Notes under the pieces: model-generated | What the model saw: only the letters and a program-made list of their open reading frames with translations | Database searches by the model: none | Told to the model about the DNA's origin: nothing | Shown here: one piece after another, positions 1,269-42,601 of the stretch | Layout: every line of letters begins with the position of its first letter | Numbering within the stretch: the first letter of the stretch is position 1 | Position numbers and translations under genes: made by a program | DNA from: an uncultured Prolixibacteraceae bacterium | Lineage (GTDB): Bacteria > Bacteroidota > Bacteroidia > Bacteroidales > Prolixibacteraceae | Reading direction: 5' to 3' | DNA: 52,635 nt | NCBI GenBank assembly: GCA_903834475.1 | Contig: CAILJH010000134.1 | Location: 1 to 52,635 of the forward strand

Positions 1269-3425
1269 TTATTTCTCCACAAAATAGCCATAATACCTGC
1301 CCATCCAGTATGGAAGCAAAAAGTAGGCGCCGTCGTCTTCGCTTGATCCGTTTGAACCTGCATCGTATTGATAGGTATTGTAATTCCATTTAGAAATTCC
1401 CCGTTCCGGGGTTGGAATTGGCCGTATAGCCTGTGCTTTTCCAAAACGGTCGACCAACTGATCTTTGGGTAAATCCCAACGGTGGCTGTTCTCCATCCGC
1501 CAGGTAATCAAATCCATCGGAATTTGCTGAAGTTCTTCCAGCGCAGTATTCAGGTCACAGTCTTTTTTAAGGGCCGAACTGGCAATGATGTTCCAGATTG
1601 GAATGCGGTCGGCTTGCTCCACATTCCAGCTTCGTTGCATGCTTTTTTCGTAAAATGGCAGTAATTCCGGATCGTTCGCATAACGGAACAGCGTGTAATA
1701 AGGCAGAAATGCAAGTTCATCGTCGGAGTGGTTGATGTCGAACGGTCCGTAATTTTTTTGCTGAATCATGTTTTCAACGTATTGATGTTTCTGCACGAGC
1801 GTTTGGTAAGCCGCCTGAAATTTCGGATCCTGAGTGACATGATAACCAGCCTTCAGGAATGCAAGAATTTGCAGCGAATTGATTCCTTTTTCGTACATCC
1901 AGTTGGTTTTGAAATTCAGCGAATCAGGCGTCCAGACTGCCCAGCGCGTGGGTTTTCCATCGAGATCGACCAAATGAAAATTGTTGTCAACGATGTGGTT
2001 CATGATCCGCTGAACAAGACTTTTTACCCGTTCTTTCATCGCTCCTTCAGCAACCAGATCGTAAAAAAGCGGATAGGCAAACAGGTGTCCTACTATTTCG
2101 TCGGAACTGGTATCTCCTTTCCATTTCCATTTTTTATCCGGAGTGAGGTGCCATTCGCCACCTTCACCAGTACTTTCATTGGCTGCTACCAGCGAACGAG
2201 CCGGAAATCCTGAAATTCCGGTGATGGTCTCCAGCCGTTCCATGGCCTCATAGGCTTTAATGGCATTTTTCTTTGCTTCCGGATCCTTGGTTACCGCATA
2301 ACGGTAACATTCGGCTGCCAGATAGATGGAAGTCCAAAGTCCGTCGTTATCGTTGGTGCCGGTGACACTGGTAGATAAATCGCCCGGAGTTTTCAATTGT
2401 GAATCGCTCACTAAACCATACCGGTCGTGCCTTAATTTGATGCGTTCTTCAAAAGCAGCCGCTTTCTGTTCCAAGGTCATTTCAACTTCCTGAATCTGGC
2501 TGATTCCTTCCGGGGTTGCAATCCATGCCGTATGTTGGTCAAGGACCAAAATATCATTCACTTTATTGTTCGGAATCCAGCGTTTACCATTGTAATAATG
2601 CCAGCTTTTATCTTTTTTAATGGCGCCCTTACTGGTTCCCAGCCACATTCCATCAGCAAAACTCCGAATGGTAGTAATCGGTCCATAGGGCAAACCGTCA
2701 GATCCTCTTAATATCCAGTTGTCACCATTTTCGGCGATGCATCCGACCGAGAAGAGTCCGCCAAAAAGCAGTTCAGCTTTTTCATTTCTGCTTTCCAGAG
2801 CGAAGTAGGTGCGTTTCAGACCATAGGCCATCATTGTTTCATCCATGTCGAGCCATTTTCCTTCAACACGGCGTAAAAGTCCGTCGGTAGTGGCCAGCCA
2901 AAGATCATTTTTCGAGTCATTTGCGATCGAATTTATACGCTTCCCGTTTGCAAAAGGAACTTTGGTCCAGGTTCCGTCATATGTCAGAAGGCCTTTTGTC
3001 GTGCCAACCTGCAGCGTTTTTTCATTCTCCCACAACAGGCAAAGGATCGTGTCTTTCCGGGCAAATTCAGGCAGTTCAATTTTCGTTGCACCGCTTTCAA
3101 TTTGAATGGCATTCACCGACGCCAGCCAGACTTCATTTTTTGCATTCAGGGCCGCAGTCCGCCAGTCTGAGCCGGAAACTTTGCTGGTCCATTTCCCATC
3201 ACGGTTTTTAAAAACGCCATTGGAAGTTACTGCTATCGGATTATTATTCAGACTGAATAATTTCACCACATTCTTTCCGGCTTCGGCAGGCAATTGAATG
3301 TCAGTTTTTACCTCCTGAAAGTAGGTGTTAATTGGAATTCCGGGGAAATTCTGTCCGCTTGAAGTAATGCAATAACTTAAAAATGTGATGGTCAGTATTG
3401 CAGCTATTTTGTTCTTTATGCTCAT
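1269..3425 (-). CDS. Exported beta-propeller / alpha-helical toroid fusion (paralogue 1 of 3)
   Basis: The 718-aa product has a Sec signal peptide and no histidine kinase or transmembrane segment. Residues about 25-325 carry short blades of the two-component-regulator propeller type (VWLASVNAIQ, LWLATTDGLLRR, MWLGTSKGAIKK). Residues about 330-718 look like an (alpha/alpha) toroid. Landmarks shared with the genes at 31162 and 40361 are TLEQKAAAFEERI, DNDGLWTSIYLAA, GDTSSDE (437-443), DGKPTRW (489-495), NHSDDE and a C-terminal LLPYWMGRYYG. The conserved acidic residues in the helical half are compatible with a glycosidase or lyase site, but no reaction is known to me. The URO-D-like gene ends 15 nt upstream on the same strand, so they are probably co-transcribed. 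An alternative role is a binding or scaffold protein. Confidence 0.88.
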   Translation of the reverse strand: MSIKNKIAAILTITFLSYCITSSGQNFPGIPINTYFQEVKTDIQLPAEAGKNVVKLFSLNNNPIAVTSNGVFKNRDGKWTSKVSGSDWRTAALNAKNEVWLASVNAIQIESGATKIELPEFARKDTILCLLWENEKTLQVGTTKGLLTYDGTWTKVPFANGKRINSIANDSKNDLWLATTDGLLRRVEGKWLDMDETMMAYGLKRTYFALESRNEKAELLFGGLFSVGCIAENGDNWILRGSDGLPYGPITTIRSFADGMWLGTSKGAIKKDKSWHYYNGKRWIPNNKVNDILVLDQHTAWIATPEGISQIQEVEMTLEQKAAAFEERIKLRHDRYGLVSDSQLKTPGDLSTSVTGTNDNDGLWTSIYLAAECYRYAVTKDPEAKKNAIKAYEAMERLETITGISGFPARSLVAANESTGEGGEWHLTPDKKWKWKGDTSSDEIVGHLFAYPLFYDLVAEGAMKERVKSLVQRIMNHIVDNNFHLVDLDGKPTRWAVWTPDSLNFKTNWMYEKGINSLQILAFLKAGYHVTQDPKFQAAYQTLVQKHQYVENMIQQKNYGPFDINHSDDELAFLPYYTLFRYANDPELLPFYEKSMQRSWNVEQADRIPIWNIIASSALKKDCDLNTALEELQQIPMDLITWRMENSHRWDLPKDQLVDRFGKAQAIRPIPTPERGISKWNYNTYQYDAGSNGSSEDDGAYFLLPYWMGRYYGYFVEK

Positions 3426-3440: not shown

Positions 3441-4532
3441 TTATTCGTATTTTTCAGAAATCAGCTTACAGATTTTTATCAGTTCCAGTATTTTTTCGTC
3501 GGGCGTTCCGTGTTCGATATCAGCAGCAACAATATCGCAAGGGCCATATTTTTTGGCAATCAATTCCATGTCATTTCTGATTTGTTCAGAAGTTTTATTG
3601 GCCACATCCATTGGCGTGTACATAATGGCGCGGCGGGTTTCTGGGAAAAGAGTTTTTGCCGTTTCCAAATCCGAATCCATTCCCATGTCGAGGTAAGCTA
3701 CTTTCGGTACTTTGGCGTAATGATCGAGATAAGGAGTTGCGCTCAAGGCACAATTGTGGATTCCGATTGCATCGAACGATTCGGCAATTTTCTGGTCGAA
3801 AGGCAGGAGAAATTCTTCGTACAAATCCGGATCGACCATATTTACCAGACAGTTGCTTACAGTGAAAAATGATAGTGCATCCGGATCAAATTCTTTTTGT
3901 CTTTGCTGCAGACGTTTGGCGGCATCGATCATGGTGGTGCAAACACAATCGAGCAGATGTTTGGTCCGCTCTGGCGCGAGGTACATATCCATAAAAATAT
4001 CCTGACCACGCAATCGCTGTGCATTATTCAGAACTCCCTGCCAGTTCATAAATCCAGCAATTTCTCCTTCCTGCGATCCAATCCAATCCACTTGTTCCAT
4101 CAGTGACTTAAAGAATGGATTTTGGTCCAGATTAGGCGGAGTGAGGTTTTCAAGTTCATCCTCAGAAAAATACTGATGTTCAGAAGTTGGCCATTGTTCT
4201 TGGTCGTATCGGATTGGTACGCCATAAATGGCCGCAATGGCAGAAGCACCGAAAGTGCCGGTCAGAAAATCAACCGGATTCCCGTCCATTCGGCCAATAG
4301 CAGTTTCCGGGAAACGCTTTTCCAGTTCATCATACATTTTTAAGCGGGTTTCGCGGCGGTATTCCGGATTGGTATGCCATTTTTCGCCAAAGTCGATGCC
4401 CAAAGCGGTCCGGTACCATTTGGGCGTAAACCCGATTTCAGGTCTCAAAAATGGAATAGGACCTGAAACTGGTCTTCTGGTGGCAGGCGCCCCCGGTGCG
4501 ATATAGCTGATGAGTTGTATCGTCGGTTTCAT
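3441..4532 (-). CDS. URO-D family protein, probably a zinc methyltransferase-like enzyme
   Basis: The 363-aa product has no signal peptide and is presumably cytoplasmic. It has the uroporphyrinogen-decarboxylase superfamily fold: an early FLRPEIGF segment, a central substrate cleft, and a C-terminal DIEHGTPDEKI. It contains IGIHNCALS followed by GPCDIV, that is H-x-C-x70-C. This matches the zinc-binding signature of corrinoid-dependent methyltransferases of the MtaA/MtbA type rather than true haem decarboxylases. No corrinoid protein is visible in the window. The start codon overlaps the stop codon of the DapA-like gene (ATGA at 4529-4532), so the two are translationally coupled. Methyl transfer, for example from a methylated sugar or aglycone, is an inference. 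True HemE is unlikely given the context. Confidence 0.87.
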   Translation of the reverse strand: MKPTIQLISYIAPGAPATRRPVSGPIPFLRPEIGFTPKWYRTALGIDFGEKWHTNPEYRRETRLKMYDELEKRFPETAIGRMDGNPVDFLTGTFGASAIAAIYGVPIRYDQEQWPTSEHQYFSEDELENLTPPNLDQNPFFKSLMEQVDWIGSQEGEIAGFMNWQGVLNNAQRLRGQDIFMDMYLAPERTKHLLDCVCTTMIDAAKRLQQRQKEFDPDALSFFTVSNCLVNMVDPDLYEEFLLPFDQKIAESFDAIGIHNCALSATPYLDHYAKVPKVAYLDMGMDSDLETAKTLFPETRRAIMYTPMDVANKTSEQIRNDMELIAKKYGPCDIVAADIEHGTPDEKILELIKICKLISEKYE

Positions 4533-5431
4533 TTCAATTTGTTTTCAATGGCTACGATCCGGTCAATCAACTGATCTGCAATTTCCTGATGAACAGAATC
4601 AAATGGCAGTATGGGTTCACGGACATTTGCTGTAGGGTAGATACCCTGCCTGTTTAGCAGCCGTTTGAAAAAGTGAATGGAAATATCCAGATGCTGATTT
4701 GAAAATGCCAAAACCGGCAAAATCTGATGGAATAAAAGCGTTGCTTCCTCTACTTTCCCGGAAGTCCAGAGTCTGTAAATTTCGGCATAAATCCGGTGCA
4801 TTCCGGTGGGCATAAATGCATGAACGCCGCGTTTTAATCCTTCAATCATCTGCGAAACCGCCCAGCCACCGCTCACGTTCAATTGCCCATTGGTTAATTC
4901 AAGAATCCTCGAATATTTTACGCCTGCCGGAACTGTTTCCACTTTCAGACAACGAAATGCTTCCACGGTTTCAAAGAGTTCCAGAATCAGGTTGTCTGAC
5001 AGACCGTAACCTGTAGAGTCCCAGTCCTGCAGCATTATCATTTCAGGTCCTGTGGCAGCCAGTTCATAAAAATGGTTTTTAAACTGAGTTTCATTCAGAA
5101 AGGGAATCTGAAACAGTACATTTTTACAACCCAGACTGATGTATTCAGAAATGAGGCGTTTGCTTTTTCCCAGGTCGGTTTCGCCGGCACCGGCAATCAC
5201 AGGAACTTTTCCATTGGTTTCTTCCAAAACAGCGGCTACCATATCCATACGTTCGGTTTACGAAAGTTTGTAAACCTCTGATGCCATGGCGGGAACAAGG
5301 AACCCGGCGACACCGGCAACCAGAGCGTAATTCACGTTTCGTTTCAATGCAGGTAAATCAATTTCTCCTTTTGTAGAGAAAGGGGTGTTTAAAACCGTGA
5401 CGATGCCATGTAATGGAAAAAGTTGTTTCAT
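4529..5431 (-). pseudogene. DapA/NAL-family aldolase-like gene interrupted by in-frame TAA
   Basis: The frame starts at ATG 5431 (MKQLFPLHGIVTVLNTPF) and runs 57 codons to GFLVPAMASEVYKLS. It then meets TAA at 5258-5260 and continues in the same frame TERMDMVAAV to TGA at 4529. Read through the stop it is 300 codons, the normal length for the dihydrodipicolinate synthase/N-acetylneuraminate lyase family. A single-base change from GAA, CAA or AAA would explain the stop. Counting the stop as position 58, the Schiff-base lysine falls at Lys163 (RCLKVETVPAG). The family Tyr of YNVP aligns with Leu in MLQDWDSTG, and the GTTGE loop is replaced by AMASE. The 239-aa downstream fragment alone would lack the first strands of the TIM barrel. 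Options are a real nonsense mutation, a sequencing error or readthrough. Confidence 0.8.
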
Positions 5432-7405: not shown

Positions 7406-9751
7406 TTATTGTTTCAATACCCAAACATCGGTAACCCGAGATTGCTGTCTCCAGTTCAGGTTTTCTTCGTTGGGTTTATCGAAGGTTATTTTCAGCTTGC
7501 CATCTTTAATCCGCTCTTTGGGAAGTGGAAATTCTTTGAATTGTTCCAGACCTTTGTCGTATTTCGTTGGTTTTAACCGTTCTCCATTGGCACGCAACAG
7601 CGCTTCGCCCAATCCTGAAACCCGGATCAGGTAATTCGAGTTCGGATCCAATTCGTTGTATTGTAATTCAGGAGTGAACTGGAACAGTTGGGTGGATAAG
7701 CGTTTCCGGCTGTATCCATCATTTTCCCAGAGATAATCGATGGCATCTTCGGTTTCGGAAGTGACATGTTTGGCATCGGCACTCGAAATATTATCGTAGA
7801 AACTACCTTCACCCGGATTTTCGTAGGTTCGAATAAACTCCAGCTTAACCAGTTTTTCCTCTTCCGATTTTAATTCCCTGATTTTCTTGAACTCATCTTC
7901 GAGCCACCAACGGTTATTCAGCGGATAATCGATAAAATCGCGCACACAACCTCTTTCTGAACCTGCAGCGTTGTACAACTTGACACTGGTTTGCAGTCCA
8001 ACTGATTTAAACAGTTCGTCGATATAGAATACAGCTTTTTGCTTTAAATCCTGGGCGACAAATTCCTTATCGGCTTTCTGAACCTGAGCCAAAGCCTGAT
8101 CCATGGCTTTATCCGCGCCGAGTGTTTTGGCATTGGCCAGAATGTCATTGGCTTCAGCCTCCAATTTTTTCTCGTAAGCCAAACGTTCCTGAATGTAAGC
8201 ATCGTAATAGGCGCGCATCACCAGTTGCTGCCAACGCCAGTTTCCGGCCAGTTGCGGATTTTCAGATTCTAGCTTTTTCCATTGGGCAAGAGTTTTTCCA
8301 ATTAAAGCGTTTCCAGTGATAGGACCTACCCAGTTTTGCTCCAGCGCCAGAATTCCATCTGCAGCCTCATTGGCAATACCTGATCCGAAGAAAAAGCTAC
8401 AATATTCCACCACCACATTCCGGACATCATTTTTTGTATTCCAGGCCATTTGGGTCCAGACAATTTTATTCACGTCATCATGAACTCCGTCGGAATAGGA
8501 GATGAATCCATCGGTGAAAGGTGCATCGTGGTTATGAATTCCGGCGTAATAAAGCGGCTGCGGATTGGTACATTCCCGTCCTTCGGTGAGTGCAAAAGCC
8601 TGATCCCATTTTTTCACCGGGAACTGGCAACGCACGGTGTGGGTCAGGTCGGGGTAGGAACGAAGTTTGTATTTTTTAGGCAAACGCTGGCGTTCTTCAG
8701 CAATGGGCGGACTACTTGGCCCATTGGCCACACCCGTCAGCCAATCCGGACTTTTCTCATCCACATATTTAAAGAAATAATCAACCTTTTCCTTATCGAA
8801 TCCCTGCAACGAAATCCACATTCCGGCTTTGGGATGGTATTTGTGCAGAATGGCAGTCATTTCTTCGAGGAAAGGCAGTACCTCGCGCGGATGGTTATCG
8901 CCCGGATCGCCGCCGGGAAAGAATACCCCGTCGAATCGGGGACATTCTTTGAAAAAAGCCTCATACTTTTCGAGCAGATCCTGCCGCTGTTTTTTATTCT
9001 TTAAATCAACTTCTGCTGCGGCCCAAACCCAGTAATCCGCATCATATTTATCACAGATTTTACTCAGCTCGATATTCATTACTGAACGGGGATATTTCAT
9101 CAATGTGTCGGGGCGTTCGTCCTGAAACGGAATTCCCTCGATACTGTTTGCCCCGAAAAGTACCTGTTCGCGGATATGTTGATCAAACTGGGCAATTGTC
9201 CACGAATCCCACGAATTGGCTGTCATTCGGTAGCCAAACTGATGTCCGCGGATCGGATATTCAGGAGAAGTGGCAAAATCAGTCGCTGATGCCACAAGAA
9301 TCTGCCGGTCTTTCGTTTCGGCGGTCATCAGCAATTTCCCTATTCCGTATATAATACCACGGGCATCAGACCCAATGATCCAGAGAATATTTTTTCCGTT
9401 CCGGACTTCATGATAAAGCCGGAAACCTTCTTTTTTTAATTCAGGCAAATTGTCGCCCTGACGTTTTGGAACAAGTTCTCCGAATAAGTCTTTGTCTCCT
9501 GAAAGGACGCAGGCGATAACCGTTTCATTGTTCCAGCTGTCGCTCAATTGAAGCTGAAGCTGGGTTCGTTTGGCAACTTCTTCAGTCAAGATTAATCCGG
9601 CAGATTCTTTTACCGGAGATTTAATTGATGGAGAAATCAAAATGGTAGCTTTCGATAAATCAAGCTGTTTTTTTGTTTCGTTGCTGCACGAAGAAATTAA
9701 TCCAAATATTGCAACTGCAAGCCAAATTCTGAATAAATTTTTCATTTTCAA
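7406..9751 (-). CDS. GH67/GH20-like exported lipoprotein, probable glycosidase (paralogue of 48523)
   Basis: The 781-aa product has a lipoprotein signal ending LISSCS. Residues about 30-165 resemble the GH67N/GH20b accessory domain, closing with DARGIIYGIGKLL. Residues about 165-480 look like a TIM barrel opening YPIRGHQFGYR, with GANSIEG, FFPGGDPGDNHP, YPDLTHTVRCQFPV, GRECTNPQP and ISYSDGVHDDVNKIVW. A helical region and a C-terminal beta-sandwich follow. The same landmarks appear in the gene at 48523, so both belong to one family. An alpha-glucuronidase-like or hexosaminidase-like activity is possible, but I cannot match the canonical catalytic pair of either family. It starts 15 nt after the Tat protein of unknown function and is probably co-transcribed with it. 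Confidence 0.82.
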   Translation of the reverse strand: MKMKNLFRIWLAVAIFGLISSCSNETKKQLDLSKATILISPSIKSPVKESAGLILTEEVAKRTQLQLQLSDSWNNETVIACVLSGDKDLFGELVPKRQGDNLPELKKEGFRLYHEVRNGKNILWIIGSDARGIIYGIGKLLMTAETKDRQILVASATDFATSPEYPIRGHQFGYRMTANSWDSWTIAQFDQHIREQVLFGANSIEGIPFQDERPDTLMKYPRSVMNIELSKICDKYDADYWVWAAAEVDLKNKKQRQDLLEKYEAFFKECPRFDGVFFPGGDPGDNHPREVLPFLEEMTAILHKYHPKAGMWISLQGFDKEKVDYFFKYVDEKSPDWLTGVANGPSSPPIAEERQRLPKKYKLRSYPDLTHTVRCQFPVKKWDQAFALTEGRECTNPQPLYYAGIHNHDAPFTDGFISYSDGVHDDVNKIVWTQMAWNTKNDVRNVVVEYCSFFFGSGIANEAADGILALEQNWVGPITGNALIGKTLAQWKKLESENPQLAGNWRWQQLVMRAYYDAYIQERLAYEKKLEAEANDILANAKTLGADKAMDQALAQVQKADKEFVAQDLKQKAVFYIDELFKSVGLQTSVKLYNAAGSERGCVRDFIDYPLNNRWWLEDEFKKIRELKSEEEKLVKLEFIRTYENPGEGSFYDNISSADAKHVTSETEDAIDYLWENDGYSRKRLSTQLFQFTPELQYNELDPNSNYLIRVSGLGEALLRANGERLKPTKYDKGLEQFKEFPLPKERIKDGKLKITFDKPNEENLNWRQQSRVTDVWVLKQ

Positions 9752-9766: not shown

Positions 9767-11341
9767 TTATAAATGAACCAATTCCGCATCCAAACCATCA
9801 ATTTCAACAGTGATTTTATTGTCATCCATCCGGATGGTAAATGATTCTTTGGTTTCGGATAAGTTCCACAACAAAATCGTTTTTATTTCAGGATACCAGG
9901 CACATACAACCGGTTTATCTTCTTCGACAAATGGAATACCTTTTAACTGAGGAATAATTTCATGTTTCAGGGTAAATATTTCCTGCAGGTTTTCAGCCTG
10001 AAACCGCAATCCGTGGAGTTTTTGATCGGTACCTGAACCATATACGAAAGTTGTTCCATTTGTTTTTAGTTTTCCGGTATGCACGTCTTTTGCATCAAAA
10101 TCAGAAAGAAAAGTCCATCCATCGCTTGCCGGAGTTTCAGTGACTTCAAAAGGAATTCCGGAAGCCAGAAACAGGCTGTAAGGTTTATCAGTACCCACCA
10201 TCCGGCTGCTTTCGCCCCAATAGTGTTTGAGTGGTCCCCGTAGTTTTTGACCGGCTATCTTTTTATGCATGCTGGCTGCCTTTTTCATTACCGGTGCAAG
10301 CGTGGTCCAATGGGTAAAAGGGAAAGGTTCAAGACCGCTCATCATCATCGTATTCCGGACATCAGCAATCGTGGAAATATGCAGTTTGGCCGCCATGTTC
10401 GGGGCCGAAAGTTTGGTCGCAGGGTAGGCAGTCGTTTCGCTGAAAGCCATTTCAGGTGAAACAAATCTTCGGTGAAAAAGTGCGCTTAAGAGTTCATCGG
10501 TTTTGCCTTTTAGCGGTGAGAAATGCTTGTCTTCGAACATCAGTTCGCCTACCCGCATCAATGAGCCTTTGTAATCGGCCAGGCGGATCCCGGCCTTTTC
10601 CGAACCAAGATACATCACCATGATTCCAAGTTCCACATCTGGAGCAGCAGCCTGTTGAGCTATAAATGATGCTGTCAACTGATCGCAATTGAAGTTGATC
10701 CAACTGTTCAAAACGGATGTCAGATTTCGATCCTTAATGTTTTGTTTTAAGTCTGCCCAATCGATCTCCGCATAACCGTATTTGCTGAGAAAGTCCTTTT
10801 GATGTTCTGCACAAAAGCAGCCGCCAATATTTCCCGGCGATCGTGCCAAACGAAAATCGTCATCCAAAAATAATTTTTTGAACCCCGCCTGATTGACTTT
10901 TTGAATCACAGCCTTGTTTTCTTCGGTTACAATCGGATGTACTGAAGTTCCTGAATATAGTTTTCCATCGATGTCAACACTTCGTGGCCAGCGCTGGGGA
11001 GTGGTGTCAAATGAAGCATCATTTCCCAGCGAATTGCCCGGATGACCCAGTGGAACGCTCAGTGAATGAACTGCGATTCCTTTTTTTTCTATTTTTTTCT
11101 TCCAAAGCAATAAGTCTTCTATCGGATATGCCCAGTATCCGTTTAGGAAAACCGGTAACCATACATCGGTTACACCGCTCCCTGCGATCAACTCCAAAAA
11201 TTCAGGGTTGCTGTTGAGTACAGTGGTATTGGTACAAAGACTAAAACTCCGGATTCCGCCATTCTTAAACGAACTGAACCCAGCCAAAGTGCCGGTGCCA
11301 GCTACTGCAGAAATTTTCAGGAAATCGCGTCGGTCAATCAT
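9767..11341 (-). CDS. Tat-exported protein of unknown function, TIM-barrel-like
   Basis: The start at ATG 11341 was chosen because MIDRRDFLKISAVAGTG is a Tat signal. It also overlaps the preceding gene's stop codon as ATGA, implying translational coupling. The longer open frame upstream is antisense-like and lacks signal features. The product is about 524 aa. The N-terminal two thirds reads like an alternating beta/alpha barrel (ELIAGSGVTDVWLPVF, KKIEKKGIAVHSLSVPLG, GFKKLFLDDDFR). It has a cysteine pair GGCFCAEHQKDFL after acidic FLDDDF, reminiscent of cysteine-containing loops in GH-A clan relatives. The C-terminal third is beta-rich, ending IDGLDAELVHL. I do not recognise a named family. 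A hydrolase acting on the same substrate as its neighbours is inferred. Confidence 0.75.
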   Translation of the reverse strand: MIDRRDFLKISAVAGTGTLAGFSSFKNGGIRSFSLCTNTTVLNSNPEFLELIAGSGVTDVWLPVFLNGYWAYPIEDLLLWKKKIEKKGIAVHSLSVPLGHPGNSLGNDASFDTTPQRWPRSVDIDGKLYSGTSVHPIVTEENKAVIQKVNQAGFKKLFLDDDFRLARSPGNIGGCFCAEHQKDFLSKYGYAEIDWADLKQNIKDRNLTSVLNSWINFNCDQLTASFIAQQAAAPDVELGIMVMYLGSEKAGIRLADYKGSLMRVGELMFEDKHFSPLKGKTDELLSALFHRRFVSPEMAFSETTAYPATKLSAPNMAAKLHISTIADVRNTMMMSGLEPFPFTHWTTLAPVMKKAASMHKKIAGQKLRGPLKHYWGESSRMVGTDKPYSLFLASGIPFEVTETPASDGWTFLSDFDAKDVHTGKLKTNGTTFVYGSGTDQKLHGLRFQAENLQEIFTLKHEIIPQLKGIPFVEEDKPVVCAWYPEIKTILLWNLSETKESFTIRMDDNKITVEIDGLDAELVHL

Positions 11342-14007: not shown

Positions 14008-14049
14008 AAATCTCAATTTAAATGTTTAGTTTTTAACTTTCCAGAATTG

Positions 14050-33648: not shown

Positions 33649-35055
33649 CTATTTCCACAAATCTTCACCATATGACCATCCCTTGCGGGCAGGTACATTG
33701 ACGAATGCATCGACATCCGGATTATTAGTAACTTTCAAATTGGCAGCATCATACTCAACTTTTGTGGCAAATTTCTGAGCCAAAACACCAATCAGTGCCA
33801 TTTCGGATAATTCGGCTGAATAATCGAAATTCGAACCGGGCAGCGTGTTATTTTTAATACAATCAATCCATTCCTGCTGTGGCATTTCTTCTCCGATTCT
33901 TGGAAATTTCTGAGCCGGTGGATTTTTCAGGAATTCTTTCCATTCTTCCTCCGGAACGATCAGTTTCGGATCATTTGGTCTTCCACCTGTTATTAAGGTT
34001 TTCTTCTCGCCAATCATCACCATGCCTGAACCCGGCAATTTGTCGATTCCCCATTCCGGACGAATTTCAGGTTTAGAACCACCTTCGTGCCAGAATAAAT
34101 TAACCGGAGCTTTATCTCCGCGGGCGCCAAACTGATAGGCAATCACCGATTCATCGGGTATAAAACTATGATCAGGAACCGGATTTGGAACCGTTGCTTC
34201 AACGGTATGCGGCATTCCAAGATTAAGCGCCCAGAATGGACCATCGAGTGTATGGCACGACCAATCGCCTAAAAGACCATTGCCGAAGTCGTAGAAACCT
34301 CTCCATGATTTTGGACAATATGCGCTGTTGTATGGATGTTCGGCAGCCTGACCCAACCACAAATCCCAGTCGAGGCCGGCACGCACAGGCTCTGCCGATG
34401 GAGGAAAACTGTCAGGTTTGGTCCAGTAACCACCGGGTTTAAAATCATAAGGACCAAACCATGCATGAACTTCTTTGACTTGTCCAAGAACATCCGCTTC
34501 ATACCATTCTCTGATTTGCCGGATTCCATTGGTCGTATGACCCTGATTCCCCATCTGCGAAACGATTCCGTAATGTTTGGCCGCTTTTTTCATGGTACGT
34601 AACTGCCAGATATTGTGCGCCAAAGGTTTCTCCACATAAACATGTTTTCCCAACTGCATGGCAACCATTGTCGCAGCAAAGTGAGAATGGTCAGGAGTCG
34701 AGATGATCACTGCATCGATCTGGTTGGCCATTTCGTCGAACATGACACGGAAATCTTTATATCTTTTAGCTTTTGGAAATGCTTTAAAACCATCAGCGGC
34801 ACGTAAATCATCCACATCACAAAGGGCAACCACATTTTCAGCCAAAATCTTCCTTTTCTGACCATCCTTTCCTGCGCTATCTTTGGCATCCACAAACAGT
34901 TTCTCCCAGTTATCTTCTCCCCGGCCACCAACACCAATTATTGCAATATTTAATTTGTTATTTGCTGAGCAACTAAACAGGTTTGGAATTATTAATATTC
35001 CTGCCGCCGCAACCGAAGTTGATTTCAGGAATGTTCTGCGCGAAAAATCTTTCAT
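33649..35055 (-). CDS. Tat-exported Gfo/Idh/MocA family oxidoreductase (copy 2)
   Basis: The 468-aa product begins MKDFSRRTFLKSTSVAAAG, a Tat signal, with a following LFSCSANN that could be a lipobox. The Rossmann part has IAIIGVGGRGEDN, STPDHSHF and VEKPLAHNIW. The C-terminal domain has DWDLWLGQAAEHP, FGNGLLGDWSCHTLDGPFW and GMVMIGEKK. It aligns along its whole length with the gene at 12655, except for an insertion of roughly 16-20 residues after GRGEDNW. Like that gene it may oxidise C3 of a glycosyl residue with bound NAD. Together with the DUF1080 gene it fits a 3-keto-glycoside route. It is preceded by two metallophosphoesterase genes on the same strand. Confidence 0.9.
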   Translation of the reverse strand: MKDFSRRTFLKSTSVAAAGILIIPNLFSCSANNKLNIAIIGVGGRGEDNWEKLFVDAKDSAGKDGQKRKILAENVVALCDVDDLRAADGFKAFPKAKRYKDFRVMFDEMANQIDAVIISTPDHSHFAATMVAMQLGKHVYVEKPLAHNIWQLRTMKKAAKHYGIVSQMGNQGHTTNGIRQIREWYEADVLGQVKEVHAWFGPYDFKPGGYWTKPDSFPPSAEPVRAGLDWDLWLGQAAEHPYNSAYCPKSWRGFYDFGNGLLGDWSCHTLDGPFWALNLGMPHTVEATVPNPVPDHSFIPDESVIAYQFGARGDKAPVNLFWHEGGSKPEIRPEWGIDKLPGSGMVMIGEKKTLITGGRPNDPKLIVPEEEWKEFLKNPPAQKFPRIGEEMPQQEWIDCIKNNTLPGSNFDYSAELSEMALIGVLAQKFATKVEYDAANLKVTNNPDVDAFVNVPARKGWSYGEDLWK

Positions 35056-35198: not shown

Positions 35199-36191
35199 CT
35201 ATTTCCTGAACGAATCTGGCCATCGGTACTCAAGAACCTTCTGACCGCCTTTCTCACGAATCCAGGTATCGAACTGTCGCTGACCTTCCTTTAAAACTAT
35301 TACACGTCCACCCGGCTTCGGATCATGAACCGGATCTTTCATCACTTTAGTAATCCGCCCATAAGCCAGAGCAATGTTGTGATAGGTTCCAATGTAATCA
35401 TTCATATGATCATGTCCCACAAACGTACCCATCACATCGCCACATTCGAGCATGGCGGTAAACATTCCGCTATTGATTTCAGGACTGCAAATTTCCTCAT
35501 TTTTAACTCCAAAAGTCATTGAAGCTGGATTATTCAAGGCAATTTTATATTCAGGAAGCGGAATATGAAAAAAAGCAAGTGCCGGTAACGGAATCCCTTT
35601 GTTAACATGAGTGAATTTTTTGCTGCTATTTCGGTACCATTCAATCTGTGAGAAATCGAACCAACCGTAACCGTCAACATTGGGCTGAAGTGTACTATAG
35701 TCATTCGAATCCATGCAATATAACAAAGCTTTAGGATTTTTTTCTTTTCCATAAACCGGAAAAATAAAATTCGAATTTCCTTTGATCTTGCCTTTATCAT
35801 CGTTATAACAAAATGGAAGTTTTTGCAGAAAGTCAGCAACCCGCTTCCGGTCATAACCGCGCTCCGATTCGTGATTTCCAAAAACGACTATCCAAGGAAC
35901 TTTTGCTTTGCTAAAAACGGCAGAAAAGCGCCGGAAACCTTCTTCAGGATTTTCCTCGGTAACAATATCGCCGGTAAGAACAACCAGATTGGGCTTCTCT
36001 ATTTCCAAAACTTGCCGGATGGTTTCATAAACATCCAAATTGTCGCCATCGACAACATGCACGTGCGTATCGGTAAACTGAACGATTTTAAACTCCCCGT
36101 TCCCATTGAATTTTAATTGGCTGGCAGGTTGTGCACCAACTGATACGATGAGGGCACAGAATAATAGATTGAATATGAATAAATTCTTCAT
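35199..36191 (-). CDS. Exported calcineurin-like metallophosphoesterase
   Basis: The 330-aa product has a Sec signal ending VSVGAQ. The metal-site motifs occur in order: FTDTHVH, LTGDIV, VFGNHES, then AFFHIPLPE and VGHDHMND. This is the binuclear metallophosphoesterase arrangement close to purple-acid-phosphatase/DcrB-like bacterial enzymes. It probably acts in the periplasm on a phosphate ester. It is followed by the Gfo/Idh/MocA gene and preceded, after 64 nt, by a second, larger metallophosphoesterase. Within a glycan locus it could remove phosphate from phosphorylated sugars or supply phosphate; the substrate is not visible. Confidence 0.9.
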   Translation of the reverse strand: MKNLFIFNLLFCALIVSVGAQPASQLKFNGNGEFKIVQFTDTHVHVVDGDNLDVYETIRQVLEIEKPNLVVLTGDIVTEENPEEGFRRFSAVFSKAKVPWIVVFGNHESERGYDRKRVADFLQKLPFCYNDDKGKIKGNSNFIFPVYGKEKNPKALLYCMDSNDYSTLQPNVDGYGWFDFSQIEWYRNSSKKFTHVNKGIPLPALAFFHIPLPEYKIALNNPASMTFGVKNEEICSPEINSGMFTAMLECGDVMGTFVGHDHMNDYIGTYHNIALAYGRITKVMKDPVHDPKPGGRVIVLKEGQRQFDTWIREKGGQKVLEYRWPDSFRK

Positions 36192-36255: not shown

Positions 36256-38037
36256 CTATTTTTTTATACTGAATGAGTCAATCAACTTATTCGCTGAATT
36301 TAATGCAGTATAGGTCATTTGATTACCGTCAATTTTCATATATTGATAAAGATCGCCATCAGTATTTCTGACTGCTGCATACGGTTCGTCGGTAATTGCC
36401 CGGGGACCGGTCGGAATTCCAACCGAAATCACATAAGCAGTTCCGTCATTGTAAGACTTTACAACCTTTCCGGCTTTCATCGGGTTGGAGCGCATGTAAT
36501 AGTGAATATGTCCGCTCATCACCATGTCCACATGGTATTTGTCAAAAATCGGACCCCATGCTTTCTGGATGTTGAAATACGGTTCTTCCCAGTTATATGG
36601 AGGAAAATGAAACATCACAAATTTCCAGGTCGCTTCGGTATGAGCGAGTTGATCTTCAATCCAGGAAGTTTGGATATCAATCGGGGAAGTAACATCGACC
36701 ATCAGGAACAAGGCATTTTTATACCGGAATGAATAGCTGTGTTCCGGAGGAACACCAACAGGTCCGATTTTCGGATAGCTGAACAATTCGCGGTACATCA
36801 GCGCACCCAAACCGCTGCGGTTATCGTGATTTCCAAGCACATTCATAAACGGTTTGCGGGAAATTACATCTTTGGAAAATTGAAACAAATCGTCCCATTG
36901 ATTCCGGAACAAACCATCGCTAACCATGTCGCCGGCAATGGAATAAAACGCAGCATCCGGATGTGCCTTTTCAGCGATATTGTGCAACTCTCCAAATTTA
37001 GGATCGTGGTGCGTATCGCCAAACCAGATGAAAGAGAATTTGTTATCAGCAGCCGCAGTAGCAAAAGTGTGATTTTCAGTCCAATCGGTTTGCGGAACTA
37101 TTTGATATTCATAAGTCGTTCCTGGTTTTAAATTCCGAAGCTGAACGGTAAAACGGTTGATATACCTATCGTTCATCAAAACGCGGTCTTCCAACCGATA
37201 TCGTTCGGCTTTGGCTGCCAACTCTTGTGTGCCGCCTTTCTCGCGGTATTTTACTTCACCGCTTGAAACCGTTGTATCAGTTCGCCACTGAATATCCATT
37301 CCGGTTGAAGCATCCGAACTCCAGGTTAACATGAGCTGATCAGGCGTTTTAGAAGATGGATAATCGGTTGTCCGAAAAGCGCCAATAATGTGCGTTTCGG
37401 TTCCCCGTCCACGAATGGTGGTGAGCAACTTTTGGCCTTTCATAGCTTCCGGAACATGCCTTAAAACCAACTCATCCCAGTCGTGATAAACAAAAGCACT
37501 GTCTTCCAATACTCCGACAAACTGATTTTCAGGAAAGAAATTACTGAGTTCCAGCTTGTCATTTTTATTCTGAGGAGCCACTGAGACGAAATAATGAAGC
37601 ATGTAATTTTCAAAGCCATTGATTCCCAATTCGACCTTCCCGGCATCAAACGGTTTTTGCCAAACTTCATAGGTAACCTGTTCGTTATTCATCTTCAGGT
37701 CAGTTTTTTTGAATCCGCTTTCGCTCAGCCAAAAAGGGATATCCTTCTGTTCAATACTTCGCATGATTGACACCACGACGGGAACATTCACAGTAAACAT
37801 CCAGTGACGGGTAGCCAGAGCGTGAAGATCTTCTTTAGAAAAAAGAGCCATGACCTGATCGTATTTCAGGTCAGACAACTGTTTGGCATCCATTGTCTGG
37901 TATAACCTTGAAATGGTTTTGTCCATCACACTTTTCACCGATTCTTCTTCCGTTTTCTGCTGACAGGAATCCAGAGTGCCGAAAATCAGGAACATAATCA
38001 GGTAAGCAGATAACTTTGAAAATTTGCTATCTTTCAT
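36256..38037 (-). CDS. Purple-acid-phosphatase-like metallophosphoesterase lipoprotein
   Basis: The 593-aa product has a lipoprotein signal ending GTLDSC. Residues about 30-210 are a domain of no clear family. Residues about 215-315 look like a fibronectin-III/purple acid phosphatase N-terminal domain (LMLTWSSDASTGMDIQWR, VQLRNLKPGTTYEYQI). Residues about 320-540 are the metallophosphoesterase: IWFGDTHHD, IAGDMVSDG, NVLGNHDNRSG, MFHFPPYNWE and MSGHIHYYMRS. The usual metal ligands are present. It starts 11 nt after the polytopic membrane protein gene, so the two are probably co-expressed and may act together at the envelope. It probably hydrolyses phosphomonoesters or diesters; substrate unknown. 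Confidence 0.9.
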   Translation of the reverse strand: MKDSKFSKLSAYLIMFLIFGTLDSCQQKTEEESVKSVMDKTISRLYQTMDAKQLSDLKYDQVMALFSKEDLHALATRHWMFTVNVPVVVSIMRSIEQKDIPFWLSESGFKKTDLKMNNEQVTYEVWQKPFDAGKVELGINGFENYMLHYFVSVAPQNKNDKLELSNFFPENQFVGVLEDSAFVYHDWDELVLRHVPEAMKGQKLLTTIRGRGTETHIIGAFRTTDYPSSKTPDQLMLTWSSDASTGMDIQWRTDTTVSSGEVKYREKGGTQELAAKAERYRLEDRVLMNDRYINRFTVQLRNLKPGTTYEYQIVPQTDWTENHTFATAAADNKFSFIWFGDTHHDPKFGELHNIAEKAHPDAAFYSIAGDMVSDGLFRNQWDDLFQFSKDVISRKPFMNVLGNHDNRSGLGALMYRELFSYPKIGPVGVPPEHSYSFRYKNALFLMVDVTSPIDIQTSWIEDQLAHTEATWKFVMFHFPPYNWEEPYFNIQKAWGPIFDKYHVDMVMSGHIHYYMRSNPMKAGKVVKSYNDGTAYVISVGIPTGPRAITDEPYAAVRNTDGDLYQYMKIDGNQMTYTALNSANKLIDSFSIKK

Positions 38038-38048: not shown

Positions 38049-40169
38049 TTATTTGTGATCTGCATTTTTCAGATTGGGATGAACTTTCCAGGTTGCATCG
38101 GGTCCAAAACGGTATTGATAGTTGTACTTATTCATCTTTTCATAAGCAGGATATTGGTAGATCAGCCGGTTTGTTCCCAGGAACAACAGACTTGATAAAA
38201 CCATTACTCCAACTGCCTTCACCCATAATTGCTTATAATAAGGCTTGTAATTTTCTACTTCATTTATCACAAACTTCTCTTCATCGCGTGGCAACAGGAG
38301 TACCAATACCGTTGCCAGAATGGCATTTACAAAAATCACCCATTCGGTTAGCATCCGACTCGGATGCCATCCGGTTAAAGCCCGTTCAAAATTGGCAACC
38401 ACCATGATCCAGAGAATAATCAGGAAAATGAGCTGTCCTTTGGCCAGGTTGCTTTTGGGAATAATTGGAAGCGGCGAGCGATAATGTCGCACAACGATTA
38501 TGATGCAGGCTGCAACCAAGAGCACCCAGGTCAGGTTAAACCAACCGAGCGGTGAGGCATGGAGGAAATCCAGACCGGGAAATCTTCCGAGGTAAGGCAA
38601 ATCCCATTGCGCAGGCAAAGTCTCAGTAGTTCCATCAACATGAGTGATCAACTTATTCCAGATTTCAGGTTTCAATTGTTCGCTCCAAACGGCTACATTT
38701 TTAACGACATTGAAATAAGTCAATGCCAGCATTACAAATAAAGCAGCGAAAGCTTTTGTCCATCTTCCTTTTAATAATAAGCCTTTTTCCTCCTGATCGT
38801 TGTGCAAGGTGATTCGCGAAGCTAAAAAACCCAAAGCCACTGCGATCGAGATTCCATTCACGAATCCATAGCTTTGCTCCAGAAAACTGTGCCAGTTTTG
38901 CGACTGCCAGTTGGCCCAGGTTGATGTGATTGAATTGAATTCAGGACTTCCGGGTAAAATACCCTTGTTTTCGAGAATACGCGGATTTCCAAACGAGGTC
39001 ATGATTTGCTGAACCCAAAGAATTCCGGAGAAACCAAGTCCGCCAATTGTTCCGCTGATGAGCGAAGCCACAGCAACAGGCCGCAGATTGTTGCGCCACA
39101 ACCAGATGCTTGTTGCGACAAAAACTCCGAGGATTCCGGCCCAGTCATCAGAGCGCGGTGGAGTCATCCGCAGTCCTCCAATTGAGGTAAAGAACAAACT
39201 CCCGAAAACCGGAAAAATTAAGAAAGAAATCAGCCAGCCACTTCCCATCCAGGCAATCAATGAAGATCCGTTCTTGAATTTACCATGGATAACAAAATAG
39301 ATCGAGATTCCGATGATCAGCCCGATAAACCAACCAATATGTTGCGGATAATCACTAAACCATTGCGGCCAGTTATTCAGCAAATTCGATGCTTCGTAGG
39401 CTTGTTTCCCGGTTTCAGGATTGATATACGATGGATCGCCCTGAAAGTAAGTCAAAGCAGTTGCAAATTTACCATCCAGACCTGTTGAATGGAGCAGCAA
39501 TTGAAAGCCGCCTCCTGAAATAGCTCCGCCTAAAGCAAAAACAGGCAAAAACAAGCGAGTCAGGTCACCTTTTCGGTTATAGAGGTCATAAATCCATGCA
39601 CTGATGAGTGCCAAAAATGCAGGAAGATAATCGGCATCGAACCAGTAGAGCGGATTTTTGTGCCGCGACCAGGTATCGTCAAAAAGAGCATTAGGCTCCA
39701 GGATTTTGGCGATGGAATCTTCGGCCAGATCTAGAAAAATCCAGGCTCCCCAAAGAAAAAGGAGTGGTTTGAAAATGCTGATCAGCCGTTCCCTTGAAGC
39801 GACTCCGGCAAAGGCAGTTCCGGCAACACCCATTCCGGCCCATGTAAAACCAAGCAGGAATGTGGCCGCAAATCCGTAGACTTGTGAAACTGCATGTCCG
39901 CTGTTGGCATATGAAAGAACCTGCATATAAGATTGTGATGCCCCAAACCCCCAGCCCAGAGCGCCGAAGAAAGCAAAATAAGGAATGCGTTCACGCCAGT
40001 CTTCACGACCTGACAAGAGTGCCACTGTAATGGCTGCAAGACAACCGGCAAATGCGGCACCATATTCATGACCAAAATTTCCCCGGATTCCCCATCCAAT
40101 TGAAAGGGACAGTCCAACCAGCAAGATTGTTCCCAAACGCCGGCTTGGATTTAGTTTAGTTGAATTCAT
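38049..40169 (-). CDS. Large polytopic inner-membrane protein, unknown function
   Basis: The start at ATG 40169 (MNSTKLNPSRRLGTILLVG) is preferred; the open frame extends 117 nt upstream through a hairpin with no signal or RBS logic. The product is about 706 aa with roughly 13-15 hydrophobic helices from the first residues to about residue 660, including GLSLSIGWGIRG, YGFAATFLLGFTWAGMG, WLISFLIFPVFGSLFF, WVLLVAACIIIVV and LVLLLPRDEE. Glycine-rich helices and conserved-looking charged loops (RMTPPRSDDWAGILG) suggest a transporter or membrane-embedded enzyme. I do not recognise a family. It is the only obvious inner-membrane protein in the window, and no MFS or SSS sugar permease is present, so a role in uptake of the released product is an attractive inference. 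Confidence 0.82.
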   Translation of the reverse strand: MNSTKLNPSRRLGTILLVGLSLSIGWGIRGNFGHEYGAAFAGCLAAITVALLSGREDWRERIPYFAFFGALGWGFGASQSYMQVLSYANSGHAVSQVYGFAATFLLGFTWAGMGVAGTAFAGVASRERLISIFKPLLFLWGAWIFLDLAEDSIAKILEPNALFDDTWSRHKNPLYWFDADYLPAFLALISAWIYDLYNRKGDLTRLFLPVFALGGAISGGGFQLLLHSTGLDGKFATALTYFQGDPSYINPETGKQAYEASNLLNNWPQWFSDYPQHIGWFIGLIIGISIYFVIHGKFKNGSSLIAWMGSGWLISFLIFPVFGSLFFTSIGGLRMTPPRSDDWAGILGVFVATSIWLWRNNLRPVAVASLISGTIGGLGFSGILWVQQIMTSFGNPRILENKGILPGSPEFNSITSTWANWQSQNWHSFLEQSYGFVNGISIAVALGFLASRITLHNDQEEKGLLLKGRWTKAFAALFVMLALTYFNVVKNVAVWSEQLKPEIWNKLITHVDGTTETLPAQWDLPYLGRFPGLDFLHASPLGWFNLTWVLLVAACIIIVVRHYRSPLPIIPKSNLAKGQLIFLIILWIMVVANFERALTGWHPSRMLTEWVIFVNAILATVLVLLLPRDEEKFVINEVENYKPYYKQLWVKAVGVMVLSSLLFLGTNRLIYQYPAYEKMNKYNYQYRFGPDATWKVHPNLKNADHK

Positions 40170-40243
40170 CCTGATTTTGAATGTATTTAATTGATTTGTC
40201 TTCGAGATAAAAGTTTTGCTATTGTTGCAAATTGGAAAGTTGT

Positions 40244-40280
40244 AAAAGCATGCGCCTGACCTAAAGATCAGGACACATGC
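40244..40280 (-). terminator. Hairpin with T-run downstream of propeller/toroid paralogue 3
   Basis: On the minus strand GCATG...CCTGA...TCAGG...CATGC folds into a stem with a small internal loop, followed by TTTT (40247-40244). It lies in the 191-bp gap before the membrane protein gene and could attenuate transcription. Modest U-tract, so confidence is limited. Confidence 0.45.
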
Positions 40281-40360
40281 CATCAAACCAAACCAAACCT
40301 AACTAAAACAAAAACAAAAAACTGTTATCGAGAGTCATGTCAATATTTGATAACACGACG

Positions 40361-42601
40361 CTATTTTTTATCTGCAGGTTCATTGATTACTCCCAGGTAT
40401 CTTCCCATCCAATAGGGTAATAACCAGATATCACCGGCACTACTTTCGGAAGTTCCGTTGGCGCCTGTCCTGTCGATGTTAAACATGTTTCCGTTGTGCC
40501 GTTGAATTGGGCGTTCATCAGGGGGAAGAACTTCTTCAGTAGTTTGATTCCTGAAATTGGGAGCAATTAATTGAATATCTTTCCGTTGACTATTCCTGAT
40601 GTCCCATTCTATCAAATCCAAAGGATGTTCTTTCAGGAAACATACCGATTCGTCCAGGTCAAATTTTGTAGTAACCATCGCTGTAAAAATATTCCAGGCC
40701 GCTTCCTTTTCAGGCCGCTCAATTTCCCAATGGTCAATAATCGCGTCTTTGAACTTGGCTTTCAGTTCATCATTCAGAGCATAACGATAAAGACCCCAGT
40801 AACCAATGAAATACATTTCATCATCGGAATGGTTCCAGCCGTCTGACAGTTCTTTGCTTAACTGATCAGCATCTTCAGGTGCATGTCCGATTGATTTCAT
40901 TGGCCGCATTAAGTTTTCGAGATAACCGTATCTGGTTAGTAATTCAAGAGCTTTCGTTTTATAAATCTCCTTGTGGGTAAAATGGTATGCGGTCTGGAGC
41001 ATTGCGGTAATGTTTGACGAGCAGATTTTCCGGTCGCCAACATTGATTGGCCTTGCATTCACATATTCCGGATTCCAGCGGCCCCAGGTTGTTGGTTTTC
41101 CGTCAAAATCGACCAGGTACATGTTGTGATCAACAATGTGCTGCATCAGAATATCTATCAGGTGGATTGCCCGTGTTTTCATTTCAGGCACATCAACCAG
41201 TTCGGCCATTGCACCCAGGGCAAATATATGTCCGATTGCTTCGTCGCTGCTTGTGGTTGCTTTCCAGTCCCACTCCGGATCTTTGGCATGACGCCAGCGA
41301 TTGGAATCAGATAGTTTTTCGATCATACCGCTGCGTTCAAATGAACGGGCAGGAAATCCGACTTCATTAGAATTAATGGTGTAGAGTCGTTCCAATGCAT
41401 CGAGCGATTCGCGGCAATTCTGCAAAGCATCGTCCGATTTGGTTACCGCATACCTGAAAACTTCTCCTCCAAGGTACATAGAAGTCCATAAACCATCATT
41501 GTCTGAATCACTCAAATATCCGGTTGACAGGTTGCCGTTTTTCAATCCGTCCCATGATGCATTAAATCCATTCCGGATGTGACGTTGGCGAACCTGCTGT
41601 TCGTAATACATGGCCTTTTCTTCCAATGTCTGGTTTTTAAAACAGATCTGACCCAATCCCCTGTGGGTCAATACCAAAACTGAATGATCAGGTCCTTCAG
41701 AAATATGACTAACCTGATCGCCCGGGAGCCAGCGTTCGCCGTTGTAGTAATTGTATTTTCCATCTTCACGAAGCATGAATGCCCCGAGTGTTGAACCGAA
41801 CCAGACTTTTCCGTTGATGTCATCCACACAAGTAATATCTGTGCAAGGAAGTTTCCGGTGGATTTCACCGTTTTGTTTTTTAGAACTATTATTGAATTCG
41901 ATGTAGCCATTTTTGGTTCCGATAAAGGTTTTAGTTCCTTTATCAGTCAGGTCGAAGGACGTAAAATTAGTTCCTTCAAAAACTTTAGTCAACTGTTGAG
42001 CTGCCAGTGAAAAAGTGCTCAATGACTTTGTTCCCAAAATCCAGAACAGATTGTTATCAGCTGAATACCGGATGTCAATGATTTCATCGGTCAGTTTTCC
42101 GGTCCAGAGTGTTTTTGAATCCTTGATGCATTTGATTGTATTTCCATCGGAAACCAGGAATGTAAAATCAGGACTTCCGGCGAACAGTTTGGCATTGGGT
42201 AATTCGTGTTTTGAAAAGATGCTTCCAGCCCAGGAATTGCTGAAAACGGCAACCTGATCGAGGTAAATCAATTGGTTTTCGTACAAGGAAATATTGGCCA
42301 ATTTCTTATTGTCCATTGCCCGGTAACTCTTGTCGGGCTCAATCATTCCGGGATAAAGGAATGCACCTCCAGATGGTTTAAGCAAACCTTCAGACGAAAG
42401 TATTTGAATGTTCCCGTTCCGGTCGGAAGCTACTTTTTTAAGTTGGGTTGATGCACTGGTAATGTAATATTTTACACTGTATTCCTGTTGGAAAGGCACA
42501 TCCTGATAAACAGGCGGCTGGTTATTTTGTGCCAATAATCCTTTAGGTTGGATCACCAAAAAGCAAAAAAATAAAATTATAAGGGTTCTTGTTTCTAACA
42601 T
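40361..42601 (-). CDS. Exported beta-propeller / alpha-helical toroid fusion (paralogue 3 of 3)
   Basis: The 746-aa product has a Sec signal ending GLLAQ. Propeller-like blades span about 30-330 (TFIGTKNGYIEF, VWFGSTLGAFML, YYNGERWLPGDQV, VLVLTHRGLGQI). The linker TLEEKAMYYEQQV leads to the toroid, with DNDGLWTSMYLGGEVFRYA, GFPARSFE, ATTSSDEAIGHIFALG, DFDGKPTTWGRWNPE, NHSDDEMYFIGYWGLYRYA and LLPYWMGRYLG. In DGKPTTW the Arg of the other two paralogues is replaced by Thr. It is the first gene after SusCD, 20 nt beyond a rho-independent terminator, a place usually taken by a locus-defining enzyme or surface glycan-binding protein. The reaction is unknown. Confidence 0.88.
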   Translation of the reverse strand: MLETRTLIILFFCFLVIQPKGLLAQNNQPPVYQDVPFQQEYSVKYYITSASTQLKKVASDRNGNIQILSSEGLLKPSGGAFLYPGMIEPDKSYRAMDNKKLANISLYENQLIYLDQVAVFSNSWAGSIFSKHELPNAKLFAGSPDFTFLVSDGNTIKCIKDSKTLWTGKLTDEIIDIRYSADNNLFWILGTKSLSTFSLAAQQLTKVFEGTNFTSFDLTDKGTKTFIGTKNGYIEFNNSSKKQNGEIHRKLPCTDITCVDDINGKVWFGSTLGAFMLREDGKYNYYNGERWLPGDQVSHISEGPDHSVLVLTHRGLGQICFKNQTLEEKAMYYEQQVRQRHIRNGFNASWDGLKNGNLSTGYLSDSDNDGLWTSMYLGGEVFRYAVTKSDDALQNCRESLDALERLYTINSNEVGFPARSFERSGMIEKLSDSNRWRHAKDPEWDWKATTSSDEAIGHIFALGAMAELVDVPEMKTRAIHLIDILMQHIVDHNMYLVDFDGKPTTWGRWNPEYVNARPINVGDRKICSSNITAMLQTAYHFTHKEIYKTKALELLTRYGYLENLMRPMKSIGHAPEDADQLSKELSDGWNHSDDEMYFIGYWGLYRYALNDELKAKFKDAIIDHWEIERPEKEAAWNIFTAMVTTKFDLDESVCFLKEHPLDLIEWDIRNSQRKDIQLIAPNFRNQTTEEVLPPDERPIQRHNGNMFNIDRTGANGTSESSAGDIWLLPYWMGRYLGVINEPADKK

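Follow-up and report, generated by a model that had tools for sequence, protein, structure and literature searches.

Three homologous genes in the window, that is, the whole 52,635-nucleotide stretch of DNA from an uncultured Prolixibacteraceae bacterium that was analysed, encode a beta-propeller joined to a helical toroid, and we propose that the toroid is the putative catalytic domain of an undescribed (alpha/alpha)6-barrel family of carbohydrate-active enzymes. The active site would lie where the six inner helices begin, at their N-termini, near D361, D442-E443 and D568, with D651, R410, R649 and W425 in a helping role. The propeller, which in many relatives is reduced to its last blades, may serve as an accessory domain that binds substrate or a partner. 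Several paralogues are presumably exported in the source bacterium, encoded with a SusC/SusD-like importer, a GH92 enzyme and phosphoesterases, and their substrate may be a glycan or glycolipid head group that carries phosphate and alpha-mannose, whose bonds they would hydrolyse.

The toroid is probably an enzyme: its acids stay near-invariant across many phyla, at least two members seem to be cytoplasmic and are encoded next to importer-like genes, and the parts of a sensor are missing. A hydrolase is our first choice, with a lyase or an epimerase as alternatives. The combined reading, a putative (alpha/alpha)6 carbohydrate-active enzyme, likely a hydrolase, with a phosphorylated, alpha-mannose-containing substrate, is given a rough probability of 40%, and any single named substrate ranks below it. 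The family has hundreds of detected members in many phyla, in which curated libraries recognise the propeller only, if at all; the other half of these proteins is a conserved, enzyme-like barrel that could add an enzyme family to glycan breakdown. The candidate catalytic residues, a natural variant clade and strict partners within the family Prolixibacteraceae make activity and substrate directly testable.

Table 1 Coordinates of the toroid genes, candidate residues and neighbouring genes in the window. Residues are numbered as in copy 1, and fractions out of 152 refer to the toroid relatives in the tree.
Feature	Position	Strand	Remarks
Copy 1 (P0001, 718 aa)	1269-3425	minus	ORF and translation
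Copy 1 propeller	2478-3323	minus	about residues 35-316; seven blades by reading of the strand list
Copy 1 (alpha/alpha)6 toroid (predicted)	1272-2477	minus	residues 317-718
D361 codon	2343-2345	minus	DNDG motif, N-terminus of inner helix 1; 151/152
D442-E443 codons	2097-2102	minus	TSSDE, N-terminus of inner helix 2; 152/152 and 149/152
D568 codon	1722-1724	minus	NHSDDE, N-terminus of inner helix 4; 149/152
D651 codon	1473-1475	minus	NS.R.D loop; 151/152
Copy 2 (P0002, 765 aa)	31162-33459	minus	toroid 31165-32457
Copy 3 (P0003, 746 aa)	40361-42601	minus	toroid 40364-41629; next gene after the SusC/SusD-like genes
URO-D-like gene	3441-4532	minus	directly upstream of copy 1; near copy-1-type toroids in L009, L011, L017, L129
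DHDPS/aldolase-like gene	4529-5248	minus	recurrent neighbour of copy-1-type toroids
Weak GH67 N-domain match (below cut-off)	7406-9751	minus	recurrent near copy-1-type toroids
GH92 alpha-mannosidase-like gene	28610-30988	minus	
MPE1, calcineurin-like phosphoesterase	35199-36191	minus	linked partner; homologues in 3/3 Paenibacillus toroid loci
PAP, purple-acid-phosphatase-like phosphoesterase	36256-38037	minus	linked partner
SusD-like gene upstream of copy 3	42739-44457	minus	sequence reading
SusC-like TonB-dependent receptor gene	44476-47871	minus	sequence reading

Three homologous genes and the spread of their family

The three encoded proteins start with a hydrophobic stretch, followed by a propeller and, at the C-terminus, a helical domain, and they align over their full length, in agreement with the original prediction. 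All three ORFs are real and lie on the minus strand, and the plus-strand translations of the same regions are broken up by numerous stops. Full-length identity to copy 1 is 35% for copy 2 and 32% for copy 3; in the toroid it is 38% and 39%, respectively. The motifs TSSDE, DGKPT.W and WMGRY, which had been called invariant, are present in all three copies, and TSSDE is nearly universal among the 152 toroids compared (S440 in 151 and S441 in 150), but DGKPT.W is looser, with D kept in 119 and K in 94 while T493 (151) and W495 (149) hold. The number of three applies to the window, and the 66%-complete genome has five copies, two of them (L004 and L005) on another contig. A recent tandem duplication was rejected, as the three copies fall in separate clades of a FastTree phylogeny, in which the copy-1 clade also includes two KSB1 members (152 distinct sequences among the 174 long ones of 192 domain hits; backbone support <=42). 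The tree, weak as its backbone is, supports the copies as probably old and not recent duplicates.

A scan of named genomes matched at least 589 stretches, at least 559 of them encoding relatives, and 80 loci were kept. Analysis A4 covered 71 of these loci and the five own copies (without L014, L036, L050, L051, L055, L057, L061, L066 and L082), and analysis A5 covered 75 loci and the five own copies (without L009-L012 and L014). The relatives listed belong to Bacteroidota, KSB1, Armatimonadota, Poribacteria, Acidobacteria and Planctomycetota, with further ones in Verrucomicrobia, Elusimicrobia, Caldithrix, Paenibacillus, Dyadobacter, an archaeal MAG and others. Among the matches listed, the nearest relative of the copy 1 toroid is found in an uncultured Prolixibacteraceae MAG (L009, 94% identical). 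The distribution is patchy: counting the source genome, the toroid occurs in 6 of 296 genomes of the phylum, 3 of 99 of the order and 51 of 140 of the family, the last in 9 of 23 genera and with up to 10 matches per genome. The central role once suggested for the family is thus too strong a wording. Eight toroid matches, some partial, were found in the KSB1 genome behind L018. The archaeal MAG (L022) has one strong toroid and another that is highly diverged (G537:C15:1560-2666, E 8.6e-37), hinting at a wider superfamily, with contamination possible.

Library searches returned no described family for the toroid. None of the 80 toroids scored above cut-off in Pfam (19 families at E <=1, best E 0.02, each in one or two members) or in NCBIfam (10 unrelated families in one member each), where the best score was to a transposase model at E 0.0025. 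A PDB hmmsearch with the 80-row toroid alignment gave no chain below E 1.6, and the literature matches listed contained no paper on the toroid family. The claim of an undescribed family is therefore upheld against the Pfam, NCBIfam and PDB sequence libraries, and a confident match to a characterised CAZy family was absent from the same searches. Two candidate memberships were rejected: GH127, whose Pfam model reached E 0.17 in 1 of 80 toroids and for which hhalign against one neighbouring GH127 protein gave a probability of 0.6%, and GH78, on profile comparison with one GH78 protein. In our judgement the toroid family is new but its fold class is known, and it is not a new kind of system.

Predicted barrel and candidate active site

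AlphaFold models, which cover copy 1 alone among the three copies, reached pLDDT 93.3 and pTM 0.92 at full length, and pLDDT 94.7 and pTM 0.94 for the isolated toroid. The toroid model has six inner and six outer helices, which bears out the earlier idea of an (alpha/alpha)6 barrel; helices 318-333, 382-400, 462-480, 534-546, 589-606 and 625-634 alternate with helices 361-379, 441-457, 513-531, 566-582, 609-619 and 700-711. The TLE.KA..YE segment, formerly described as a linker, is actually the first helix of the barrel in these models. A Foldseek search of the PDB with the full-length model listed almost only propellers, including HTCS sensors, and the toroid was therefore folded alone. Most of its best PDB matches were (alpha/alpha)-barrel sugar enzymes, and the matches included cellobiose 2-epimerases, D-mannose isomerase, GH88, BT_3782, GH76, GH146 and terpene cyclases, with TM <=0.55 and nearly always about 10% identity among the best 50. 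No match at E <=0.001 came from a viral fold search. In the model, the fold class is a known one, and the fold does not identify the family.

With TM values of at most 0.55 and epimerases as the best matches, hydrolysis does not follow from the fold. The toroid could instead be a sugar epimerase or isomerase of the AGE type, or a lyase, that acts on free or oxidised sugars and feeds a keto-sugar route, as nearby MocA-, PF06439- and DHDPS-like genes would suggest, a reading that we consider rather unlikely. It would explain why 9 of the 10 best PDB matches, several entries of which are one protein, are cellobiose 2-epimerases, a ruminal sugar epimerase or D-mannose isomerase, and it is consistent with the conservation of H447 (146 of 152) and Y549 (148 of 152), with the DHDPS-, URO-D- and GH67-N-like genes near copy 1 and its relatives, and with the MocA and PF06439 genes in the window. 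However, those nine matches have TM 0.41-0.52 at about 11% identity, and homologues of the window MocA genes lie near 9 of the 80 loci and those of PF06439 near 3. The AGE superfamily (cellobiose 2-epimerases 7d5g and 4z4l) resembles the toroid in its barrel of about 400 residues and gave the best Foldseek match (E 2.2e-5), but differs in its 11% identity, TM of 0.49-0.51 and lack of any sequence-profile match to the toroid. The barrels of GH88/unsaturated glucuronyl hydrolases and GH76 (4q88, 3wiw, 4c1s and 4v1s) are also of the (alpha/alpha)6 type and carry acids at the inner-helix N-termini, whereas their TM of 0.41-0.55, their 8-10% identity and the absence of a Pfam match set the toroid apart. 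GH127 and GH146 (8qf8 and 6yqh) share the fold with TM up to 0.51, yet the GH127-model score mentioned above is not significant.

Conservation across the 152 toroids points to one end of the barrel. Besides the acids of Table 1, R410 (150), R649 (150), W425 (152) and E674 (147) are kept. Conserved polar residues fall at inner-helix N-termini in 18 of 50 cases, against 21% of positions (hypergeometric P 0.006), compared with 7 of 50 at outer-helix starts (P 0.88) and 9 of 50 near inner-helix C-termini. The conserved acids are concentrated at one end of the inner helices in the copy 1 model. The active site of (alpha/alpha)6 enzymes is often on the face made by the inner-helix N-termini, and it is therefore likely that the conserved acids, placed here by helix positions, meet in one pocket. 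From the predicted fold and the computed conservation we infer both this single pocket and catalysis.

A natural variant is found in a paralogue clade formed by L004 and two relatives, in which all three members have changed H333, D359, N360, E443 and H447 and keep D361 and D442. The joint change is one evolutionary event. Since the five residues changed together, they may form a functional unit, as far as sequence comparison can suggest.

The same clade can be read as favouring a non-catalytic module for glycan binding or sensing, either a surface glycan-binding protein or a detached HTCS sensor, which we regard as unlikely. The position of copy 3 directly after the SusC/SusD-like genes, where one copy had been predicted to follow SusCD, fits a binder as well. 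So does the propeller, which is of the HTCS-sensor kind, as had been stated: Pfam Reg_prop (PF07494) matched copy 1 above cut-off (E 1.7e-4) and copy 2 below it, with no match in copy 3; the PDB sequence matches of copy 1 are HTCS sensors only, all in the propeller and with BT4663 best (E 8e-6); and the propeller is closest to those of BT4663 (4a2l), BT4673 (3va6) and BT3049 (3v9f), which are also of the Reg_prop type. By reading, the strand order of copy 1 gives seven blades closed by an N-terminal strand; HTCS sensors carry two propellers. Unlike these sensors, the toroid proteins have no Y_Y_Y part, membrane segment, kinase or receiver. In the three copies, no 19-residue hydropathy window exceeds about 1.1 after residue 40, leaving the N-terminal hydrophobic stretch; the Pfam scan gave no Y_Y_Y, histidine kinase or receiver match; and the NCBIfam scan gave nothing near family cut-offs. 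The earlier statement that membrane segment and kinase are missing was correct, and an HTCS sensor was rejected on these grounds.

The near-invariant acids in 152 relatives also argue against a pure binder, as do the size and location of other members. The residues before the toroid, counted in 79 of 80 loci (L014, with a broken frame, was left out), number <100 in 3, 100-199 in 28, 200-279 in 8, 280-350 in 33 and >350 in 7, and these lengths are upper bounds because start codons were taken mechanically. The RW motif of the last blade is kept in 19 of the 28 members of the 100-199 class and in 30 of the 33 of the 280-350 class. These short N-termini suggest the accessory role of the propeller, as judged from sequence. 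A crude hydropathy rule, applied to residues 1-60, makes 50 of 79 members look exported and 29 not. The Paenibacillus proteins L063 and L073 have no signal peptide or hydrophobic start, and their genes lie downstream of genes for an ABC sugar permease and a binding protein (by reading only); the location of a third, L057, depends on the start codon, as a hydrophobic stretch lies in the upstream frame. Of the catalytic or glycan-recognition role originally proposed, the catalytic part is thus favoured as a prediction, and pure recognition is less likely because L063 and L073 are without a signal peptide and the propeller is shortened in many members.

Gene partners and the proposed substrate

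Gene contents were compared across 140 genomes of the family. At the preset cut-off, PAP is confined to toroid-bearing genomes, of which 43 have it and the other eight of the 51 do not. The distance from PAP to a listed toroid is at most 5 kb in 31 of 44 places and 5-19 kb in three, and ten places are on contigs without a toroid among the matches listed. Genes of the GH92 family in general are found in 129 of 140 genomes, and a close orthologue of the window gene (>1100 bits) in 47, all with a toroid, even when tens of kb separate the two. MPE1 is present at the preset cut-off in 68 genomes, 41 with a toroid (counted by hand) and 27 without, and above 400 bits in 27 genomes, 26 of them with a toroid; the stricter GH92 and MPE1 cut-offs were chosen after seeing the lists. 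Genus-stratified z values were 8.2 (PAP), 8.8 (close GH92 orthologue) and 6.6 (close MPE1), with relatedness within genera remaining in them.

Gene order agrees in part. In 20 stretches from 16 relatives (L129-L148), SusC/SusD-like genes repeatedly have one or two copy-3 toroids, PAP and copy-2 toroids as neighbours; the sample is non-random because these stretches were chosen for their toroids, mostly several. The arrangement changes from genus to genus, some of the stretches include MPE1, and GH92 is adjacent only in genera g1 and g245. The copy-1 type is accompanied by DHDPS-, GH67-N- and sometimes URO-D-like genes, not by phosphatases.

PAP keeps the GDTH, GD, GNHD and GHIH signatures usual for metallophosphoesterases in alignment with kidney bean PAP, and has S in place of that enzyme's tyrosine, a residue typical of purple acid phosphatases. 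The window GH92 protein can be aligned across the catalytic-acid region, and the GNDD of two solved relatives reads GNED. Other phosphoesterases were found by Pfam in one stretch each, namely MetallophosN/C (L140), PHP (L141) and GDPD (L137), with look-alikes in other stretches by reading, and the Paenibacillus toroid neighbours include His_Phos_1, Metallophos and Exo_endo_phos. Activity on Man-PO4-Man has been reported for the GH92 enzyme CcMan5 (PMC5930347). GH92 together with the phosphoesterases suggests a phosphorylated alpha-mannoside; both the substrate and the type of bond are suggested by co-occurrence and partial synteny. The earlier emphasis on rhamnose and uronate is not specifically supported, as linkage points to GH92 and phosphoesterases and not to the GH106 and GH78 alpha-rhamnosidases that the window also holds.

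A further possibility, somewhat unlikely in our estimate, is that the toroid is an (alpha/alpha)6-type enzyme with a substrate unrelated to phosphate and that the phosphoesterases were merely co-inherited in a large locus; since this overlaps with the first part of the main reading, the odds of the two are not exclusive. Gene blocks are inherited together, GH106 and GH78 alpha-rhamnosidases share the window, MPE1-like genes are common without a toroid (27 of 68 genomes), and sampled neighbours in other phyla show no phosphatase theme. On the other hand, several unrelated phosphoesterase families lie beside toroids in Prolixibacteraceae and, separately, in Paenibacillus, and the GH92 orthologue co-occurs even at tens of kb. 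At its boldest, the reading of a phosphorylated alpha-mannosidic substrate would make the toroid a new class of enzyme, spread over many phyla, that breaks open alpha-mannosyl head groups linked through phosphate (of the GIPC, GPI or phosphomannan kind) in series with GH92, several phosphoesterase families, and the copy-1 module of GH67-N-like and aldolase-like enzymes, with the propeller positioning the charged substrate; this we hold to be quite improbable.

A universal genomic partner was rejected. Among 658 neighbour ORFs of the 80 loci, no cluster was present in more than 11 loci, and 122 sampled neighbours (of 220 near-neighbour ORFs, from 72 of 80 loci, proteins >900 residues left out) matched 206 Pfam families, none in more than three members. 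Outside Bacteroidota and Paenibacillus, neither set contained a shared partner.

Several other genes near the toroids were observed. The DHDPS/aldolase-like gene (4529-5431, minus strand) has an in-frame TAA at 5258-5260, which leaves just the later portion in the ORF list; the gene is uninterrupted in relatives (302-306 residues), with two pieces also in L134, and the break is either a real interruption or an assembly error. A PF06439 (3-keto-disaccharide-hydrolase-family) gene and two MocA-type oxidoreductases, the second with a TAT match below cut-off, lie at 104-1183, 12655-14016 and 33649-35055; genes of these types are possible parts of an oxidative 3-keto glycan pathway, and those of the window might fit such a route. 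Neutral-ceramidase-like genes are found near toroids in the window (11338-12642) and in L012, L013, L022 and L086, and in unrelated lineages too. A DUF3748/TolB-like protein, possibly a cross-phylum partner, lies near toroids in Prolixibacteraceae, Dyadobacter and Caldithrix (L140:5243, L141:15926, L142:11813, L145:5529, L076:9272, L088:9203 and L039:5931), with DUF3748 confirmed by Pfam for L140 and two sampled neighbours and the remainder assigned by reading. Between PAP and copy 3, a gene at 38049-40286 (minus strand) encodes a 745-residue protein, multi-pass membrane by reading and without a Pfam match, which has a close homologue in L143. Beside GH92, a gene at 24491-28492 (minus strand) encodes a 1333-residue protein with FG-GAP/ASPIC repeats, DUF6851, a VCPO (vanadium-haloperoxidase-type) part and a type IX secretion tail.
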